A stretch of 64,000 nucleotides of DNA from assembly GCF_011058255.1 (NCBI RefSeq), contig NZ_JAALFH010000050.1:1-64000 (forward strand), given 5' to 3'. Source of the stretch: Thioalkalivibrio sp. XN8. Lineage in GTDB: Bacteria > Pseudomonadota > Gammaproteobacteria > Steroidobacterales > XN24. Made by a program: the position numbers and the translations under genes. Below the pieces are notes generated by a model, which saw nothing but the letters and a program-made list of their open reading frames with translations, made no database searches and had not been told where the DNA came from. Of the stretch, positions 19,607-27,869 are shown in pieces (the first letter of the stretch is position 1; each line of letters begins with the position of its first letter).

Positions 19607-20038
19607 ATGAGCGCGACCGCGATGTTCTGGCCCATGCTCGGCATGGCGACGCTGACCGCCGTCGCCTGGGCGGTGATGGGGCGGCGCCGGCAGGCGGCCC
19701 TGCAAGGCAAGGAGATGCGGTTGGACGACTTCTCCGGCCGCGGCGAAGTGCCCATGACCGCGCCGGTGTCGGTCTCGACGCGGCATTTCGCCAACCATTT
19801 CGAGGTCCCTCTGCTGTTCCACGTCATCGGCGCGGTCCACCTGGCGCTCGGGGTGGCCAGCGTGTTCGCCGTGGCGGTGGGCTGGGGCTTCGTGCTGCTG
19901 CGCGCGCTGCACATGCGCGAGCATCTCGGCCGCAACCGGATCATGACCCGCTTCAACCTGTACGTGGCCAGCACCGCGCTGATGTGGCTGCTGTGGCTGC
20001 ACCTGGCGGCCCAGCTGCTGCTCGGCGGCCGGGCCTAG
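19607..20038 (+). CDS. MAPEG family membrane protein
   Basis: The 143-aa protein has four hydrophobic helices (about residues 5-24, 70-88, 89-106 and 118-138) and the family-like NHFEVPLLFHV motif. MAPEG proteins include microsomal glutathione S-transferases and related membrane proteins; bacterial members are mostly uncharacterised. It starts 3 bp after the dienelactone hydrolase stop and converges on the amidohydrolase gene. Confidence 0.8.
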   Translation: MSATAMFWPMLGMATLTAVAWAVMGRRRQAALQGKEMRLDDFSGRGEVPMTAPVSVSTRHFANHFEVPLLFHVIGAVHLALGVASVFAVAVGWGFVLLRALHMREHLGRNRIMTRFNLYVASTALMWLLWLHLAAQLLLGGRA

Positions 20039-20047
20039 GCTCCCGGC

Positions 20048-20743
20048 TCAGCGCGCCGGGAACGTCTGCACCAGGTCGCGCAGCAGGGCCTCGCGCCGGG
20101 CGGGGAACAGCGCCTGGTTGAGCTCCAGCTCGACGCCCGCGTAGCCCGGGCCGAAGCGGCGGCGCAGCGCGGTGGTGTGGCCGTCGGCGATGCCGCGATA
20201 GGGATAGTTGCGCCGCACCCGCCAGCCGCGCTGCCGCAGGCCCTGCAGCCAGTCGCGGCAGAAATCCACCTCGGCCTGCCGGCGCGGGTCGTACAGCAGC
20301 CCGATGTCGGCGTTGCGGACCTCGACCCCCAGCACCGGGGTGAAGCTGTGCACGGAGACGTGCCGCACTTCGGCGCCGGCCGCCAGCCAGCGCTCGATGG
20401 TGGCGACCACCGACTCGCGCCATGGCTGCCACCAGCGCGCGGCGATGTCGGCGCGCTCGCCTGGGGACAGTCCCCGGCTGCGGGCGGAGAAGGCCTGCGG
20501 GTGATGCAACGAGCGATTGAGGTCGACCAGCAGCCGGCTCGTCGTGGCAGCGAAGGCCGCGTCGCCGTGCGCCGCGGCCAGCGCATCGAAGGCCTCCAGT
20601 GCCCCCGGGTCCCAGCCGCGGTGGGAAGCGAGTTCCGCCGCGGCATCCTCGAAGACCGCCGCGAACTCCGCCGGAATTTCGCGCCCGCCGTGCTCGCAGG
20701 TGAACAGCCGGCGCAGCGGCGCCCCGCTCCGCGTCCTGGTCAC
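20048..20743 (-). CDS. N-formylglutamate amidohydrolase family protein
   Basis: The 231-aa zinc-hydrolase-like protein has the opening FTCEHGGREIPAEF, then LLVDLNRSLHHPQAFS, VRHVSVHSFTPVL and GLLYDPRRQAEVDF, the normal family layout with metal-binding Glu/His and Arg residues. It is the last gene of a four-gene coupled operon; its GTG start (20743) overlaps the stop of the GCS2 gene as GTGA. Family enzymes cleave N-formyl-Glu and related acyl amino acids. Here it may release or recycle a product of the two upstream ligases (inference). It contains a GGGGACAGTCCCC palindrome at 20463-20475. Confidence 0.85.
   Translation of the reverse strand: MTRTRSGAPLRRLFTCEHGGREIPAEFAAVFEDAAAELASHRGWDPGALEAFDALAAAHGDAAFAATTSRLLVDLNRSLHHPQAFSARSRGLSPGERADIAARWWQPWRESVVATIERWLAAGAEVRHVSVHSFTPVLGVEVRNADIGLLYDPRRQAEVDFCRDWLQGLRQRGWRVRRNYPYRGIADGHTTALRRRFGPGYAGVELELNQALFPARREALLRDLVQTFPAR
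20463..20475. repeat. GGGGACAGTCCCC palindrome inside the amidohydrolase gene
   Basis: A 13-bp palindrome with a single central base, matching the units at the hemN/DUF192 junction except for the central base. It lies in frame within coding sequence, so it could be chance or an old repeat insertion. Confidence 0.5.
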
Positions 20744-21972
20744 AGCAGCCGGTTATCGGCCAGGCAGCCCGCCAGCTCCCGGTAGGCCGCGTGGAGCTGC
20801 GCCCGGTCCGGCGTCATGCCGACGGCGGCTAGCAGCCGTCGCGCCAGGGGCCCCCGCGCCAGAATCCGGCCCAGGGCGGACCTCGTAGCGAGATCGAAGT
20901 CGTCCCGGGCCTGTTCGCACACCCGGCGCCAGGCCTCGCCGGCCGTCATGCCGCGCTCCTTCAGGCCCAGCATGCGCAGGTAGTCCGGGTCGGCGATGCG
21001 CGCCTGGTCGCCGTCGCGGGCCACGGCCAGCAGGAGGTCCGCCAGCAGGTCCTCCGGCCATTCCTGCTGCACGGCGAGCGGTGCAGTGGTCTCGGCGGCC
21101 AGCCGCCGCAGCAGCGCCACGATCGCGGCCGCCACCGCCACGTCCGCGGCGGGACACTCCTGGATGTCCACCACGCGGATCTCGATGGCATTGCGGTCGA
21201 AGCGCGCGATGGCGCCGCGCGAGTTGAGGAACAGCGGATTCAGCACGCCGTCGGGGTCGTGGGGCCGGATGTCGGCGGCGATGCGCTCGAACAGCCCGCG
21301 GTAGGCCGCCTCGGTGAACAGGCGCTCCGGGATCACCCGGCCCGTGATCGAGGGGATGCGCCGCTGGTTGTGGCGGTAAGTCTCGAGACGGGCGTCCAGG
21401 TAGCCGGTGAAGCGCCCGTCGAGGAAGGGCGAGCTGGCCGCCAGCGCCGGGACCAGCGGCAGCACCAGCCGGACGGCGGCGTGCAGCCGGCCGAACTCCT
21501 CGTCGCCGGCGAAAGGCAGGTTGAGGTGCGTGCTCTGCAGGTTGGACCAGCCGTGGCCCTGGCAGCCGAAGATGCGGTCGTAAGTGTCGTAGATCTCGGC
21601 GCCGCCATGGGGCCAGATCCGGGTCTCCGTGGCCGGGTCCATCCAGGGATGCGCCCCGGTGCCGAGCAGCATGGCGTCGTGCCCGGCCAGCAGCGCGTTG
21701 GCGGCCTGCACGTCGGCATGGAAGGCCCGGTCCAGGCCCGCGAGCGTCGCGGCCGGCCCGTTGGTCTTGAGCTCGACGAGGTGCGAGACGATCTCGTTGG
21801 ACCAGCCGATCGCACCCCGCTCGATGTCCTCGACCCAGTCGTCCGCGCCGGCCGCGGCGCGCAGCAGGACATCGGCGAGCGGGCGCACGGCCAGGGTGCC
21901 GCGATCGACGATCATGTACTCCAGCTCGAGGCCGAACACCTCGAACAGGCCCCAGCGGCGGCCGGCGCTCAT
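20740..21972 (-). CDS. GCS2-type carboxylate-amine ligase
   Basis: The 410-aa protein belongs to the glutamate-cysteine ligase type 2 group (glutamine-synthetase-like fold), which couples ATP hydrolysis to amide formation. Seen in order: FGLELEYMIVD with metal-ligand Glu residues, NEIVSHLVELKTNGP, LGTGAHPWMDP, STHLNLPF, LNSRGAIARFDRNAIEIRVV and DIQECP. The ATG at 21972 overlaps the stop of the ATP-grasp gene (ATGA). It is closer to YbdK-like ligases than to proteobacterial GshA, so glutathione synthesis is unlikely. The substrate is unknown. Confidence 0.85.
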   Translation of the reverse strand: MSAGRRWGLFEVFGLELEYMIVDRGTLAVRPLADVLLRAAAGADDWVEDIERGAIGWSNEIVSHLVELKTNGPAATLAGLDRAFHADVQAANALLAGHDAMLLGTGAHPWMDPATETRIWPHGGAEIYDTYDRIFGCQGHGWSNLQSTHLNLPFAGDEEFGRLHAAVRLVLPLVPALAASSPFLDGRFTGYLDARLETYRHNQRRIPSITGRVIPERLFTEAAYRGLFERIAADIRPHDPDGVLNPLFLNSRGAIARFDRNAIEIRVVDIQECPAADVAVAAAIVALLRRLAAETTAPLAVQQEWPEDLLADLLLAVARDGDQARIADPDYLRMLGLKERGMTAGEAWRRVCEQARDDFDLATRSALGRILARGPLARRLLAAVGMTPDRAQLHAAYRELAGCLADNRLL

Positions 21973-23441
21973 CGCGCCTCGCCCTCGCGCCGCGCCTCTA
22001 CGCGCCGCCGCAGGGAGGCGATCACGGCGTCGTACAGGCCGGGGCCCAGCACCTTGTCTTCCACGTCCGACTCGACGCTGGGATTGTCGTTGATCTCGAT
22101 CACCACGGGCTTCCCATCGAGTTCCTTCAGGTCGACGCCGTAGAAACCGTCGCCCATCAGTCGTGCCGCCTTTACTGCCATCTGCACCACGGCTTGCGGC
22201 GCGTCCGCCACGGCGAGAGTCTCGTACTGGCCCGAGACGTCGCGACGGCGGCGACTGGCCCAGTTGTAGATCTGCCAGTGGCCCCGCGCCATGAAGTACT
22301 TGCACACGAAGAGCGGCTCGCCTTCGAGCACGCCGACGCGCCAGTCGAACTCCGTCGGCACGAATTCCTGGCCGATGACCAGGTCCGAGGCCTCCAGCAT
22401 GCGGTCGGTCAGCTCGAGGTACTCGGCCTCGGTCGTGGCCTTGGCGACGCCCTGGGAAAAGGAGGAATCGGGCACTTTCAGCACGCAGGGCAGCCCGAGG
22501 CGGGCGAGCGCCGGGCGGCGCTGGCCGCGCTGGATGATCTCGGTGCGCGGCGTGGGAATGCCGGCGCCCTTCAGCACTTCGGCCAGGTAGACCTTGTTGG
22601 CGCAGCGCAGGATCGAGTCGGGGTCGTCGATGACCGCCAGGCCCTCCGCCTGGGCGCGGCGCGCGAAACGCCAGGTGTGGTGGTTGACGGCGGTGGTCTC
22701 GCGGATGAACAGGGCGTCGAACTCCGCCAGCCGCGGATAGTCGTCGCGGCCGATCAGTTCGACCCCGAAGCCCTGGCGCCGGGCCGCCTTGACGAAACGC
22801 TGCAGCGCCTGGCGGTCGGAGGGCGCTTCGCGCTCCGCCGGGTTCACGAGGATGGCGAGGTCGTAGCGCGAGCGGTCGCTGCGCTCCGGGGCATAGCGCT
22901 TGCGGCTGAAGTAGCGCTGCGCCGCCTGGTGCATGAAATCCAGGTGCTGGGGCGGGATCTCGTCCAGCGACAGCGCCCGCACGCCGCGCAGGTTCCACTT
23001 CTGGCCCCGCCCGAACTTGGCCCGCAGGAACGGCGCCGGGAACAGGCGGAACAGGGCGCGGGCGAGGGCCTGGTGCTGGGCCGCCAGGTTCTCGCCGAAG
23101 TAGATCGACAGCACGAAGTCGTCCGACTTGAGACGGCCCAGGCTCTTCTGCACCAGTTCCTCGACGTCGGTCGGAATGAAGCGGACGAAGCCGGGCGCGT
23201 TGAGGTCCTGGATGGTGCGCACGTCCGGGATCACCCGGTGCCCGCGCGCTTCCGCCAGCAGCGAGACATAGTAGCCGCGCGTCTGGTAGCCGTAGGAGCG
23301 CGCGAGGTTGAACACGCGCACGCCGCGGCCGGGCCAGGGCTCCGCCGGCGCCAGGTACTGGGAGACCGGGATGACCTCGCCGTCTTCGGCGCGAGACAGG
23401 GGCCAGTCGGCCGGGTTGTCGACCACGATGAGGCGTTTCAT
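21969..23441 (-). CDS. RimK-type ATP-grasp ligase with RLAN-like N-terminal domain
   Basis: The 490-aa protein has an N-terminal domain of about 170 residues (VFNLARSYGYQTRGYYVSLL, then HRVIPDVRTIQDL) that matches the RLAN type found before RimK-like ATP-grasp modules. The C-terminal ATP-grasp domain shows NKVYLAEVLKGAGIPTP, LPCVLKVPDSSFSQGVAK, IGQEFVPTEFDWRVGVL, GFYGVDLKELDG and metal-binding VIEINDNPSVES. RimK relatives add amino acids, often Glu, to peptides, proteins or metabolites. It overlaps both neighbours by 4 bp (ATGA), so the operon is translationally coupled. Confidence 0.88.
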   Translation of the reverse strand: MKRLIVVDNPADWPLSRAEDGEVIPVSQYLAPAEPWPGRGVRVFNLARSYGYQTRGYYVSLLAEARGHRVIPDVRTIQDLNAPGFVRFIPTDVEELVQKSLGRLKSDDFVLSIYFGENLAAQHQALARALFRLFPAPFLRAKFGRGQKWNLRGVRALSLDEIPPQHLDFMHQAAQRYFSRKRYAPERSDRSRYDLAILVNPAEREAPSDRQALQRFVKAARRQGFGVELIGRDDYPRLAEFDALFIRETTAVNHHTWRFARRAQAEGLAVIDDPDSILRCANKVYLAEVLKGAGIPTPRTEIIQRGQRRPALARLGLPCVLKVPDSSFSQGVAKATTEAEYLELTDRMLEASDLVIGQEFVPTEFDWRVGVLEGEPLFVCKYFMARGHWQIYNWASRRRRDVSGQYETLAVADAPQAVVQMAVKAARLMGDGFYGVDLKELDGKPVVIEINDNPSVESDVEDKVLGPGLYDAVIASLRRRVEARREGEAR

Positions 23442-24160
23442 GGCAGCGGGGCTTCCCCGATCACGAGCAGGTTGGCGTCGTACGTCATGACGCCGAGCAG
23501 GATGGCGCGAATCAGCCGGTCCACGCCGACGTCGTAGTAATGGCTCTCCTCCGCCAGCGGATTGCCGATGAAGGGATCTGCCACGCGGACTTTGCGGCCT
23601 TCGCGGCCGCACAGCACCACGAAGTGGCCGGTGGGCTCGCCCCGCAGGTCATCGTAGACCGAGCGATCGTGCCGGTTGGTGTATTCGCGGCAGCTGTCAT
23701 AGAGATAGGTGGCGCTCAGGCCGGTCAGGACCGGCAGGCCGGCGTCGAAAGCGTGGTCGAGGAGCCGGGGCCGCAGGTCGTCGAAAGCGATCTCGCCGCC
23801 CAGCTCGAGAAACCGGATATAAGCGCGGCTCGCCGCCCCGAATTTCTTGCCGTGCTTGTGCTGCAGCTGGGCCTCCAGCTTCGCTACCAGCCCGGCCGAG
23901 TCCAGGTCGCGCCAGGTCGGGTCGAAGATCTTGAGGTGATAGCTGTACAGGCGGGCCCGGTACCCGAGCCGCAGGGCATGGTTACCCAGCGAGACCGCCA
24001 GCGTGCCGCCCTCGGGCAGCCCGGGCACCTCGCGGATCAGCTGGGGCAACTCCATCCGCCGCCCGAGATGGCGGTACACCGCCTGCAGGCAAGTCGGGCC
24101 GCAACTGATGTCGTCGGGCTGCGGCTGCATGCGGATGTCGAGGTAGGGATGCGGGCTCAC
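23438..24160 (-). CDS. C39/papain-like cysteine peptidase of the RimK-GCS2 operon
   Basis: The 240-aa protein has no signal peptide or membrane helix, so it is cytosolic. The catalytic region is QPDDISCGPTCLQAVYRHL, with Gln14 and Cys20 in the Q-x5-CGPTC arrangement. TGHFVVLCG supplies the His and VRVADPF the Asp. It is not fused to an ABC transporter as bacteriocin C39 peptidases are. It is the first gene of the operon, starting GTG 24160, and its stop overlaps the ligase ATG. It may trim or transfer peptides made or modified by the ligases (inference). Confidence 0.82.
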   Translation of the reverse strand: MSPHPYLDIRMQPQPDDISCGPTCLQAVYRHLGRRMELPQLIREVPGLPEGGTLAVSLGNHALRLGYRARLYSYHLKIFDPTWRDLDSAGLVAKLEAQLQHKHGKKFGAASRAYIRFLELGGEIAFDDLRPRLLDHAFDAGLPVLTGLSATYLYDSCREYTNRHDRSVYDDLRGEPTGHFVVLCGREGRKVRVADPFIGNPLAEESHYYDVGVDRLIRAILLGVMTYDANLLVIGEAPLP

Positions 24161-24183: not shown

Positions 24184-24206
24184 GGCGCTATCTCGCGCCT
24201 TTTTTT
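24184..24206 (+). terminator. Terminator-like hairpin between divergent genes
   Basis: GGCGC (24184-24188), loop TATCTC, GCGCC (24195-24199) and seven T (24200-24206), oriented plus. No plus-strand gene ends here: upstream is the 5' end of the minus-strand peptidase gene. It could stop antisense transcription into the VanZ-like gene or act as a leader attenuator for it. Confidence 0.55.
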
Positions 24207-24248: not shown

Positions 24249-25313
24249 ATGGCAGGCAGAATGCCGCCCATGGAAAGGCCCGACGACAGCCCCGGCGCCG
24301 CGGCGCCCCCGGACTGGCGCCGCCTGGCGCCGCCGGCACTGGGCATCCTGGCGCTGGTGCTGTTCCTGGCGCTGGCGCGGCCGCCGGGGGACGCCTATGG
24401 CTGGCGCACGCTGTTCGAGCTCGGGCACATCCCGCTGTTCGGCTGCGCCGCCCTGCTGATGCTGCGCCTCGTCCAGGTACTGCGCGGCAGTACGGCGCCC
24501 GCGGCGGTCGATCTCCTCATCGCCCTGCTGGCCACGACGGTGCTCAGCCTCGCCACCGAGGCGCTGCAGGTGTTCCAGCCGGGCCGGGACGCCAACGTGA
24601 CGGACGCCGCCAAGAACCTGGTGGGCGTCGTCTCTTTCCTGGCCATCGTCGCGGCCCTGCGACCCGCCCTCTGGCAGGGCCTGGGGAAGGACGGCCTGGT
24701 GGCGGCCAGGCTGGTGCTGGCCGGCGCGGTTCTCACCCTGTCGCTGGCGCTGGCGCCGCTTGCCGGGGTCGCCTGGCACTACGCGCAGCGGGCGGCGGCG
24801 CTCCCGGTGGTGGCGGACTTCACGCAGTCCTGGCAGCAGCCGTTCCTGAGCCTCGGCCGGTCGGAGCTCGAGCGTACGCTCGCCCCGGACGGCTGGCGCG
24901 AGATGGAGGGCAGGCAGGTCAGCCGTCTCACCTTTCTCGACGCGCCCTGGCCCGGGGTCACGGTGCGCGAGCCGTATCCGGACTGGTCCGGCTACCGGGC
25001 GCTGCAGTTCCAGGTCTGGTCGGCACTCGAGCAGCCGGTCGAGCTGGTGCTGCGGGTCGATGATACGCATCGCCGGCGGGCCCACGCGGACCGCTTCAAC
25101 GGCAGCTTCATCGTGCTGCCGGGACTGAACGATTTCTCCGTGCCGCTGGACACCATCGCGAGCGGCCCGCGCGAGCGCGAGCTGGACCTGCAGAACATCA
25201 GCCAGTTCATCATTTTCAGCCGCCGTCCCGGCGAGCCCTTCTCGCTCTACCTCGGCCCGTTCCGTCTGACGGGCGAGGGCGAGAGGATTGCCGGGGCCGG
25301 CGCTGCGGATTAG
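24249..25313 (+). CDS. VanZ-like membrane protein with C-terminal beta domain, copy 1
   Basis: About 354 aa. Residues 25-170 contain four to five membrane helices with a VanZ-like pattern (DAYGWRTLFELGHIPLFGCA, then TEALQVFQPGRDANVTDAAK and N). The extracytoplasmic C-terminus is beta-rich with GVTVREPYPDWSGYRALQFQ, VVLRVDD-type strands and LPGLNDFSVPLDTI, resembling a carbohydrate-binding-like module. The next gene repeats the same architecture, so they are tandem paralogues. Starts at 24249, 24261 or 24270 are possible. The function is unknown; VanZ proteins are linked to glycopeptide tolerance only in some firmicutes. Confidence 0.7.
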   Translation: MAGRMPPMERPDDSPGAAAPPDWRRLAPPALGILALVLFLALARPPGDAYGWRTLFELGHIPLFGCAALLMLRLVQVLRGSTAPAAVDLLIALLATTVLSLATEALQVFQPGRDANVTDAAKNLVGVVSFLAIVAALRPALWQGLGKDGLVAARLVLAGAVLTLSLALAPLAGVAWHYAQRAAALPVVADFTQSWQQPFLSLGRSELERTLAPDGWREMEGRQVSRLTFLDAPWPGVTVREPYPDWSGYRALQFQVWSALEQPVELVLRVDDTHRRRAHADRFNGSFIVLPGLNDFSVPLDTIASGPRERELDLQNISQFIIFSRRPGEPFSLYLGPFRLTGEGERIAGAGAAD

Positions 25314-25354
25314 GGTAGGCGCGAGCCGTTGGCCGCCCCTGCCGGAGCATTGCG

Positions 25355-26377
25355 TTGAATCCAGCCGAACCGACCCAGGTCCCCGATCGCGAGCCCGTGC
25401 GCGGGAGTCGCCGGGGACCCGGTGCGCGCCTCATGGTCCTCTACGGCGCCATCGTGCTTTCGCTGCTGACGGTGTTCGGCCTGACCAAGCCGCGCGGCCT
25501 GCTGGAAGAGACGCTGCAGGACCTGCGGGAGATCTTCTTCTTCGGCTTCGCCGCCCTCATCATCCTCGAGATGACGGCGCTGATCGGCCGGCGCTGGATC
25601 CGCAAGCGCTCCCTCTACTATGCCGTGGCGGTGGTCGCCGTGGCCGGGCTGCTGGCGGGCTACCAGCTCATCCTCGGCGGCGACCCCGAGTCCACCGTCA
25701 CGCCGCTGCAGACGTTCGTCGGCGCCTTCGGCTTCCTCGCGCTCAGCGCCGCGCTCGACCGGGGCCTGAAACGCGAGCATGCCTGGTTGCGCGGCTGGCC
25801 GCGCCGCTCCATCGGCATCCTCGGGGCCCTGCTGGTCGCCGCCGTGCTCAGCCCGCTCGGCCCGGTGCTGGCGTCCTATGCCGGGCGTGCCGGCGCGTTC
25901 CCCGAGGTGGTGGACCTCGCCGCCATCTGGCAGGAGCCCTTCGTCGAGCTCCACGATGCCGAGCTCTTCGTGGGCAAGGGGCCCGAGAAGTGGCCGCTGC
26001 GCACCGGCAAGCGGGTCGCGCTGCTGCTGCTGGACGGCGCTCCGGGCGCGGGCGTCATGGTGCAGGAGCCGTTCAAGGACTGGACCGGCTTCGACGTGCT
26101 CAAGCTCAACCTGTTCTCCACCGCCGCCGAGCCGATCACCGTCAACCTCCGGCTCGAGGACAGCTCGCGGATACTGCCGCCGGAAGAGCGGATCACCTAT
26201 CCGTTGCGGGTGATGCCCGGCGCGAACGATTTCTTCGTGCCGCTGGAAGCGTTCCGCACGGCCCCCTCCGGGCGCGAGATCGACCTGTCGACGGTGCGCC
26301 GGATGGGCTTGTTCCTGGCCGAGCCGAGCGAGCCGCTGCGCCTTTACGTGCACCGGATTCGTCTCGCCGAGCGATGA
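25355..26377 (+). CDS. Membrane protein with C-terminal beta domain, copy 2 (paralogue)
   Basis: The 340-aa protein starts TTG 25355 with GGAG at 25344-25347. Four to five membrane helices (residues about 26-175) are followed by a C-terminal domain that aligns with copy 1: GVMVQEPFKDWTGFDVLKLN, VNLRLEDSS, MPGANDFFVPLEAF, then LRLYVHRIRL. The helical part has diverged and keeps little of the VanZ motif. It lies 41 bp after copy 1, and its stop overlaps the rlmJ ATG, so all three are probably one transcript. The function is unknown. Confidence 0.65.
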   Translation: MNPAEPTQVPDREPVRGSRRGPGARLMVLYGAIVLSLLTVFGLTKPRGLLEETLQDLREIFFFGFAALIILEMTALIGRRWIRKRSLYYAVAVVAVAGLLAGYQLILGGDPESTVTPLQTFVGAFGFLALSAALDRGLKREHAWLRGWPRRSIGILGALLVAAVLSPLGPVLASYAGRAGAFPEVVDLAAIWQEPFVELHDAELFVGKGPEKWPLRTGKRVALLLLDGAPGAGVMVQEPFKDWTGFDVLKLNLFSTAAEPITVNLRLEDSSRILPPEERITYPLRVMPGANDFFVPLEAFRTAPSGREIDLSTVRRMGLFLAEPSEPLRLYVHRIRLAER

Positions 26378-27225
26378 ACTACCGGCATGCGTTCCACGCC
26401 GGCAACTTCGCAGACGTACTGAAGCATGCCGTGCTGGCGGCGCTGCTGCGGCACCTGCAGCGCCGGCCCAAGCCGCTGTGTTATCTCGAGACTCATGCCG
26501 GGGCCGGCCTGTTCCGGCTCGATGCTGCGGAGGCGCGCCGCTCCGGGGAGGCAGCGGGCGGTATCCGGCGCCTGCAGGGACTGGCGCCCGCGTCGCCGGC
26601 GCTGGCGGCCTACCTGGGCGTGGTGCGCAGGCTGCCGGGCAACGAGGACGGGATTCGCTGCTACCCGGGCTCGCCGCTGGTGGCGGCGAGCCTGCTGGGT
26701 GCCGCCGACCGGCTGGTGCTCACGGAACTGGTGCCGGCCGCGGCGGAGGCGCTCCGGCGACTGTTCCGGGGGGATGCCCGGGTGGCGGTCCATTGCCGGG
26801 ACGGCTGGGAGGCCCTCGGCGCCCTGCTGCCGCCCGCGCCGCGCCGCGGCCTGCTGCTCATCGATCCGCCCTACGAGGCGGCCGACGATTTCGACCGCGT
26901 GGCGGGCGGGCTCGAGCAGGCCCATCGGCGTTGGCCGGTCGGGGTGCTGGCCGCCTGGTATCCGGTCAAGGACCGGCGCGCCCTGCGGGCTTTCATGCGC
27001 CAGGTGGCGGCCGCGCCGCTCGGCACCGGCGGGGTGCTCGCCGCCGAACTGTCGGTCCGGCCGGATGACAACCCGGCGGGCCTCAACGGCAGCGGCATGC
27101 TCCTCGTGGGGCCGCCCTGGGGCTTCGAGGAAGAGCTGCGACCGCTGCTGGACGAGGCCTGGGCGGCCATGCGCGAACCCGCGGCGCCACGGCCCCGCCT
27201 GGAGTGGCTGCGCCGGCCCGCCTGA
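26374..27225 (+). CDS. rlmJ: 23S rRNA (adenine-2030-N6)-methyltransferase
   Basis: Modifies A2030 of 23S rRNA using SAM. From ATG 26374 the protein is 283 aa. It begins with the family signature NYRHAFHAGNFADVLKHAVL, then ETHAGAGLFRLD, and has the catalytic GLLLIDPPYE motif (DPPY) for N6-adenine methylation, followed by WYPVKDR and LNGSGMLLVGPPWGF. ATGA overlaps the upstream membrane-protein stop. The longer upstream frame is antisense-like noise. Confidence 0.95.
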   Translation: MNYRHAFHAGNFADVLKHAVLAALLRHLQRRPKPLCYLETHAGAGLFRLDAAEARRSGEAAGGIRRLQGLAPASPALAAYLGVVRRLPGNEDGIRCYPGSPLVAASLLGAADRLVLTELVPAAAEALRRLFRGDARVAVHCRDGWEALGALLPPAPRRGLLLIDPPYEAADDFDRVAGGLEQAHRRWPVGVLAAWYPVKDRRALRAFMRQVAAAPLGTGGVLAAELSVRPDDNPAGLNGSGMLLVGPPWGFEEELRPLLDEAWAAMREPAAPRPRLEWLRRPA

Positions 27226-27305
27226 GCCCGCCGTCGATACGAGAACTGCGTCACGTCCCGGCAACCTGGCGGTTGTTACGCTGCGAACGTCGGGAGGACC
27301 GCGTG

Positions 27306-27869
27306 ATGAGTAACGTACAGCCGATCAACGAGAGCTACTGGGTCGAGCCCGGCCTGCTGCTGGCTGGCGAGCACCCGGGCCACTGGGAGGATGCGGTGAT
27401 GCGCCGGCGCATGTCGCGCCTGCTCGATGCCGGCATCCGCCTGTTCGTCGACCTGACCGACCGGAGCGACCTCGGGCGCCCCTATCGCCCGATGCTGGAC
27501 CGCATCTGCAGCGACCGCGGCATCATCGCGGAGTACGTGAACCTTCCGCTGCCCGTCGATACCGTGCCCGAGCGCGCCGATGCCATGGCGGACGTACTGA
27601 CCGCCATCCGTGACGGCCTGGGCCGTGGCGCACGCGTGTACGTGCATTGCAGCGACGGCGTGCAGCGCACCGGCATGGTGATGGGCTGCTGGCTGGTCGA
27701 GCGCGGGCTGGAGCCGAAGGACGCCCTCGAGGAGCTCGGCCGTCGCTTCATGTCGATGGGCAAGTCGCAGATGTTCCGCAGCACGCCGACCGATGCCCCG
27801 CTGGTGGAGTGGGTGGAGAACTGGCAGCCGCAGCTGGACATGAAACAGCTGCGGACCTGGGCATCCTGA
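27306..27869 (+). CDS. Dual-specificity/tyrosine phosphatase family protein
   Basis: The 187-aa protein has the P-loop VHCSDGVQRTGM with catalytic Cys115 and Arg121, matching HCxxGxxR. An upstream LFVDLTDRSDLGRPY segment carries a likely WPD-type region, and no signal peptide is present, so it is cytosolic. The start ATG 27306 (GTG 27303 also in frame) follows a GGGAGGA ribosome-binding site. Such small bacterial phosphatases can act on phosphotyrosine, phosphoinositides or nucleotides; no partner kinase is adjacent. It ends 8 bp from the converging antiporter gene. Confidence 0.82.
   Translation: MSNVQPINESYWVEPGLLLAGEHPGHWEDAVMRRRMSRLLDAGIRLFVDLTDRSDLGRPYRPMLDRICSDRGIIAEYVNLPLPVDTVPERADAMADVLTAIRDGLGRGARVYVHCSDGVQRTGMVMGCWLVERGLEPKDALEELGRRFMSMGKSQMFRSTPTDAPLVEWVENWQPQLDMKQLRTWAS

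Follow-up and report, generated by a model that had tools for sequence, protein, structure and literature searches.

A conserved C39–RLAN–GCS2–FGA operon in Thioalkalivibrio sp. XN8 and its possible role in the metabolism of a glutamyl-type amide

Operon layout and protein families

The window analysed here, a 64,000-nucleotide stretch of contig NZ_JAALFH010000050.1 of Thioalkalivibrio sp. XN8, carries four consecutive minus-strand genes at 20048-24160, in the order papain-like cysteine hydrolase (C39), RLAN protein, GCS2 ligase and N-formylglutamate amidohydrolase-like zinc hydrolase (FGA). An earlier, sequence-only reading had described four genes joined by three 4-bp overlaps, and this arrangement was read directly from the sequence (Table 1). 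Mechanical ORF lists gave longer frames for the RLAN and GCS2 genes (547 and 752 aa). The shorter starts were adopted because they fit the 4-bp overlaps and the start points in relatives. A promoter search gave no match, and a terminator-like site at 24184-24199 (+) was discarded, its score being at chance level.

Table 1. Genes, domains and gene overlaps of the operon (window coordinates)
Feature	Position	Strand	Details
C39/papain-like cysteine hydrolase	23438..24160	-	240 aa, GTG start; Pfam Peptidase_C39 3.2e-7
RLAN + RimK-type ATP-grasp amide ligase	21969..23441	-	490 aa, ATG start; Pfam RLAN 1.7e-44, RimK 2.7e-6
RLAN N-terminal domain	22926..23363	-	RLAN family match 2.4e-45
Pre-ATP-grasp + ATP-grasp catalytic part (residues 212-458)	22068..22808	-	NCBIfam rimK_fam 212-457, 6e-18, below cut-off; fold match
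GCS2 (YbdK/GCL-like) carboxylate-amine ligase	20740..21972	-	410 aa, ATG start; Pfam GCS2 4.4e-33
N-formylglutamate amidohydrolase-like zinc hydrolase (FGA)	20048..20743	-	231 aa, GTG start; Pfam FGase 2.3e-28
ATGA overlap, C39 stop / RLAN start	23438..23441	-	sequence
ATGA overlap, RLAN stop / GCS2 start	21969..21972	-	sequence
GTGA overlap, GCS2 stop / FGA start	20740..20743	-	sequence

On the opposite strand, a gene for a MAPEG-family membrane protein (19607-20038, +) ends 9 bp from the 3′ end of the operon. The MAPEG family includes glutathione-linked enzymes; this neighbour does not recur beside the operons of relatives. The upstream side is flanked by a divergently starting gene for a weakly VanZ-like protein. 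It is the first of two consecutive genes at 24252-26377 (+) whose products look alike in layout and length; the second product has no Pfam match. A phosphatase of the DSP-PTPase type, belonging to the 'Swiss Army Knife' group, is encoded at 27204-27869 (+).

Both ligases fall outside the named families, because their scores stay far under the curated cut-offs of all NCBIfam ligase models. Below these cut-offs, the RLAN protein is related to RimK, LysX and MptN and the GCS2 protein to YbdK and cyanobacterial GCS. The RLAN protein reached 65 bits against a cut-off of 143 for TIGR00768 and 24 against 331 for PRK10446, and is not a RimK in the strict sense. It does show the fusion of an RLAN domain to a RimK-type ATP-grasp part that marks members of the amidoligase operons. 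Sequence and fold searches matched its C-terminal part to RimK, LysX, ArgX and D-Ala-D-Ala ligase (Ddl); the ATP-grasp part is close to the amino-acid-adding RimK/LysX/ArgX clade in sequence as well as in fold, and its fold is just as close to Ddl. Among the fold matches are RimK in the RpsF complex and LysX and ArgX with LysW. For the RLAN domain itself no PDB relative was found by sequence, the PDB matches beginning only beyond profile position 235. All 90 relatives compared carry the predicted Mg/ATP residues K283, K322, D437, E449 and N451 without change. The ATP-grasp fold, the catalytic residues and the predicted addition of an amino acid to a carboxylate are common to this ligase, RimK/RimABK of Pseudomonas and LysX/ArgX-LysW, whereas identity is only about 20%, the RLAN domain is extra and the partner proteins are unrelated.

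The GCS2 protein shares the fold motifs ExE, HP and IEIR with YbdK and with plant-type and cyanobacterial GCS2 ligases, and aligned to E. coli YbdK with an hhalign E-value of 1.8e-8; a PDB search at 1e-3 gave no match. It differs from the YbdK type in its identity of about 25% to YbdK and in the constant pairing of the subfamily examined with RLAN. Out of 18 residues inspected in 89 relatives, 17 were invariant, among them E16, E18, E60, H140, Q146, E264 and R266, and the remaining one was kept in 88 of 89. In the public record of Legionella adelaidensis the relatives are named only 'RimK family protein', 'glutamate-cysteine ligase family protein' and 'N-formylglutamate amidohydrolase'.

The operon is independent of glutathione synthesis. 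Canonical gshA (PF04262, 511 bits) and gshB (PF02955, 229 bits) lie on other contigs of the genome and the operon ligases score below the curated cut-offs for GshA and GshB, which agrees with the earlier proposal of a dedicated unit. Nor do the two ligases appear to rebuild a known glutathione, ergothioneine or polyglutamate pathway, which had been named beforehand as evidence against this proposal; they remain far under all NCBIfam cut-offs for these pathways. In its logic the operon resembles glutathione synthesis combined with phytochelatin synthase, where a GCS-type ligase, an ATP-grasp ligase and a papain-fold enzyme acting on the product come together; the two sets of proteins are, however, not homologous, and the host has a true gshA and gshB.

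Neither hydrolase matched any NCBIfam model. The predicted active site of the C39 protein, a triad with oxyanion residues (Q14, C20, H179, D195), is conserved in 68-69 of 69 relatives. Its AF2 model (pLDDT 93) resembled the pseudomurein endoisopeptidase PeiR, the C39 leader peptidases of PCAT1 and ComA and the phytochelatin synthase Alr0975 in Foldseek searches. Because the TM-scores were modest (0.4-0.5), this similarity does not fix the reaction. The matches include acyl-enzyme users, such as phytochelatin synthase captured with glutathione, and the isopeptide cutter PeiR. For FGA, which Pfam places in the N-formylglutamate amidohydrolase fold family, the nearest solved structure was Atu2144 (2odf, 4e-37). 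The predicted metal-binding and general-base residues and N-R motif (E17, H18, D45, N76-R77, H128, H132, E205) are invariant in 72 relatives. Such N-R motifs serve to bind the carboxylate of the substrate in M14 enzymes and in aspartoacylase; by analogy, N76-R77 would suit the removal of a C-terminal acidic residue. A second FGase of the genome, on contig C27, scores better than the operon FGA against the Pfam model. Taken over all four proteins, the predicted catalytic residues, which the sequence-only reading had described as retained, proved essentially invariant in 69-90 relatives.

Distribution and conservation of the unit

Two samples were used. We surveyed 229 genomes of the same class as the host, with subfamily searches for GCS2, C39 and FGA, and inspected the best 80 of at least 575 GCS2 relatives in public genomes. 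The survey is the less biased test, because the 80 loci were selected as closest relatives. RLAN was present in 50 of the 229 genomes, always as one copy, and 40 of these 50 loci were examined for their gene neighbourhood; seven had C39-RLAN-GCS2-FGA in identical order. The GCS2 subfamily occurred in 13 genomes, all with RLAN and 12 of them with both the C39 and the FGA subfamilies. C39 was found in 12 genomes, all within the 13 with GCS2, and FGA (>270 bits) in 14, namely the 12 with C39 and GCS2 plus G140 and G196. The four subfamilies follow one common phylogenetic profile across the 229 genomes; Fisher p-values for their co-occurrence ranged from 4e-19 to 7e-10, a significance that is overstated since phylogeny is ignored in the test. 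Genome G115 keeps all four genes, split over two contigs (L066/L157) into C39+RLAN and GCS2+FGA, and GCS2+FGA there adjoin an arginase-family gene. Genome G216 retains only RLAN+GCS2.

Among the best 80 GCS2 relatives, RLAN lay just upstream in all 80, overlapping or at a distance of at most 30 bp in 72, while C39 preceded RLAN in about 60 and FGA followed GCS2 in about 60. According to the record titles, these loci span at least eight phyla and include Bacteroidota, Fibrobacter, Planctomycetes, Deltaproteobacteria/Desulfobacterota, Gemmatimonadota, Verrucomicrobia, Omnitrophota, Balneolaceae and Gammaproteobacteria. Plasmid searches gave few carriers only. Across 46 loci, correlations between the distance matrices of the four proteins were 0.76-0.88, in part owing to species relatedness.

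A group made up mostly of marine flavobacteria, with a few others, keeps RLAN+GCS2, mostly together with FGA, and has no C39 of the operon subfamily anywhere in its genomes. Candidates for a replacement of C39 in this group were rejected, as they were weak matches to transporter-sized proteins. Since C39 and FGA can be lost while RLAN and GCS2 stay, the ligase pair is the core and the hydrolases are accessories, and turnover of the product would not be essential. The view of the four genes as one unit has to be modified accordingly: it holds without exception for the RLAN+GCS2 pair, whereas C39 is dispensable in this group and in G216, which has also lost FGA. Independent occurrence of the four families, named beforehand as evidence against a common pathway, is not seen at the subfamily level; the broad families are found apart from one another, FGases in 34 of 229 genomes and RLAN in 50 of 229.

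In the neighbourhoods of these 80 operons, referred to below as type B, we found no recurring gene family beyond the four, no linked transporter for import or export, no NRPS and no conserved small peptide, precursor ORF or carrier within 700 bp of either operon end. BLAST clusters near the operon ends, considered as RiPP or carrier genes, turned out to be lineage-specific flanking genes. The lack of a linked transporter or NRPS, noted before at the single locus, therefore extends to the relatives, and together with the lack of an extra gene or small peptide it fits a small internal product.

RLAN clades and a link to the Anbu system

In a phylogenetic tree, the 121 RLAN proteins compared fell, with support 1.0 and no exception, into 31 without GCS2 (clade A) and 90 of the operon type (clade B). 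The RLAN protein of the window belongs to the GCS2-linked clade B. In clade A, RLAN adjoins a fusion of GNAT with a DUF3335/C39-like domain (by Pfam) in 29 of 31 loci, and a gene for an M14 zinc carboxypeptidase or an aspartoacylase-like DUF2817 protein stands beside this pair in seven (M14 in L034, L035, L043 and L051; DUF2817 in L032, L036 and L067). Nothing else was conserved in the wider neighbourhood of the 31 type-A loci. The C39 protein of the window matches PF03412 instead of DUF3335 (PF11814), and, with an identity of 20%, has the C, H and D positions in common with the DUF3335 proteins of clade A. The two clades are nearly mutually exclusive, which is not significant at about two double carriers expected.

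M14, aspartoacylase-like and FGA enzymes have a common zinc hydrolase fold. Both clades therefore appear to realize one scheme from different parts, consisting of an ATP-grasp ligase, a second N-acylating enzyme, a thiol hydrolase and a zinc hydrolase. The RLAN + RimK ligase family, a C39/papain-like partner and, in some loci, zinc hydrolases are shared; clade A has a GNAT-fused C39 and lacks GCS2 and FGA, whereas clade B has a stand-alone C39 with GCS2 and FGA. RLAN was reportedly defined by Iyer and co-workers in 2009. RLAN systems were probably already predicted in that year, so that the operon would belong to a type of system that is known but uncharacterised. PMC10318531 attributes the DUF3335-GNAT fusions to Iyer et al. 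2009 (doi 10.1039/b917682a).

The operon's FGA subfamily also occurs in another context. In G140 and G196, both without RLAN, it sits between Anbu and a transglutaminase-core protein in a three-gene unit (L155:6831-9209 and L156:2019-4667, respectively). The G140 Anbu protein matched Anbu in the PDB at 1.5e-88, and the genes for the circularly permuted ATP-grasp and alpha-E proteins of the Anbu system lie on another contig in these genomes. This supports a general role of the FGA subfamily in undoing the products of ATP-grasp ligases. An ATP-grasp ligase, a papain-fold enzyme and a hydrolase are common to both systems; the Anbu operon differs in its ATP-grasp architecture and in lacking GCS2, and no Anbu, alpha-E, circularly permuted ATP-grasp or transglutaminase gene is present in the operon or recurs in the neighbourhoods of its relatives. 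The proposed role of the Anbu operon is protein tagging (PMC6376114).

Proposed function and alternative explanations

We regard it as an even call that the operon is a self-contained intracellular module for the synthesis and subsequent trimming or recycling of one small (gamma-)glutamyl-type peptide-like amide. GCS2 would activate a carboxylate, for which the gamma-carboxyl group of glutamate is the likeliest candidate, and join it to a substrate amine. The RLAN/RimK ATP-grasp enzyme would then phosphorylate a carboxylate of the intermediate and couple it to an amino acid, probably an acidic one, through the amino group of the latter; substrate recognition would likely fall to the RLAN domain. 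The C39-like enzyme may attack an amide with Cys20 to form an acyl-enzyme, by which the N-side acyl group is taken off or passed on, and the FGA-like enzyme could remove a C-terminal acidic residue at an N-acyl-glutamate bond and so reverse the second step. Substrates, step order, the roles of both hydrolases and a small rather than protein-bound product are the parts of this scheme that we infer.

The FGA-Anbu link keeps alive the main rival, a rather unlikely one, in which RLAN extends a host protein or carrier by amino acids, either C-terminally or on a side chain, GCS2 caps or branches the tag, and C39 and FGA erase it. RimK acts on ribosomal protein S6 and LysX/ArgX on LysW, and these ligases are among the nearest folds to the RLAN ligase, partly in complex with their targets; a papain-like hydrolase paired with an exo-type zinc hydrolase also resembles a set of erasers. 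A housekeeping protein target, by analogy with RimK and S6, would be compatible with the absence of a linked substrate gene. Against tagging, no carrier or conserved small peptide is linked, GCS2 enzymes of known activity use small amines, and at least eight phyla would need to share the tagged protein. The small internal product is preferred because of the lack of a linked protein substrate, the small amines of the known GCS2 enzymes and the autonomy of the module in very different bacteria. Salvage, where the ligases merely mark an amide that has been imported or damaged so that it is broken down, is improbable. The unit does contain two hydrolases, and FGA relatives work in histidine catabolism, but it is the ATP-using pair that is always kept and the hydrolases that get lost, and no uptake transporter is linked.

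Two further explanations are very improbable. ATP-grasp and C39 families are both known from RiPP systems (PMC8939145), where the former could modify and the latter mature a ribosomal peptide, as in graspetides. The missing precursor largely refutes this reading: no conserved ORF of this kind lay within 700 bp of either end in the 80 loci, so that the operon does not qualify as a graspetide system. No exporter is linked, and RimK, LysX and Ddl are closer folds than the graspetide ligase PsnB. A diverged glutathione, ergothioneine or polyglutamate pathway has in its favour that GCS2 and ATP-grasp formally correspond to a gshA+gshB pair; it conflicts with the separate canonical gshA and gshB and with the low NCBIfam scores of both ligases, and Egt-type neighbours do not recur.

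A wider picture is tentative, and we give it slightly less than even weight. The operon would represent a widespread new metabolite or conjugation pathway of glutathione-like GCS-fold and ATP-grasp logic with its own cysteine and zinc hydrolases, existing in two versions (GNAT-C39/RLAN and C39/RLAN/GCS2/FGA) and having a zinc hydrolase in common with the Anbu system. In that case the pathway would yield a bacterial gamma-glutamyl or glutamylated compound of a new class, or else a new reversible protein tag. The searchable literature yielded no function for RLAN and no product of the operon; we also found no statement there of the two-clade logic, the phylogenetic profile or the FGA-Anbu link, which may be new. 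A four-enzyme module whose order is kept in at least eight phyla, with essentially invariant catalytic residues and nothing attached, must make something useful. As the module is small and autonomous and also occurs in strains that can be cultured, its product should be accessible by ordinary expression and mass spectrometry.
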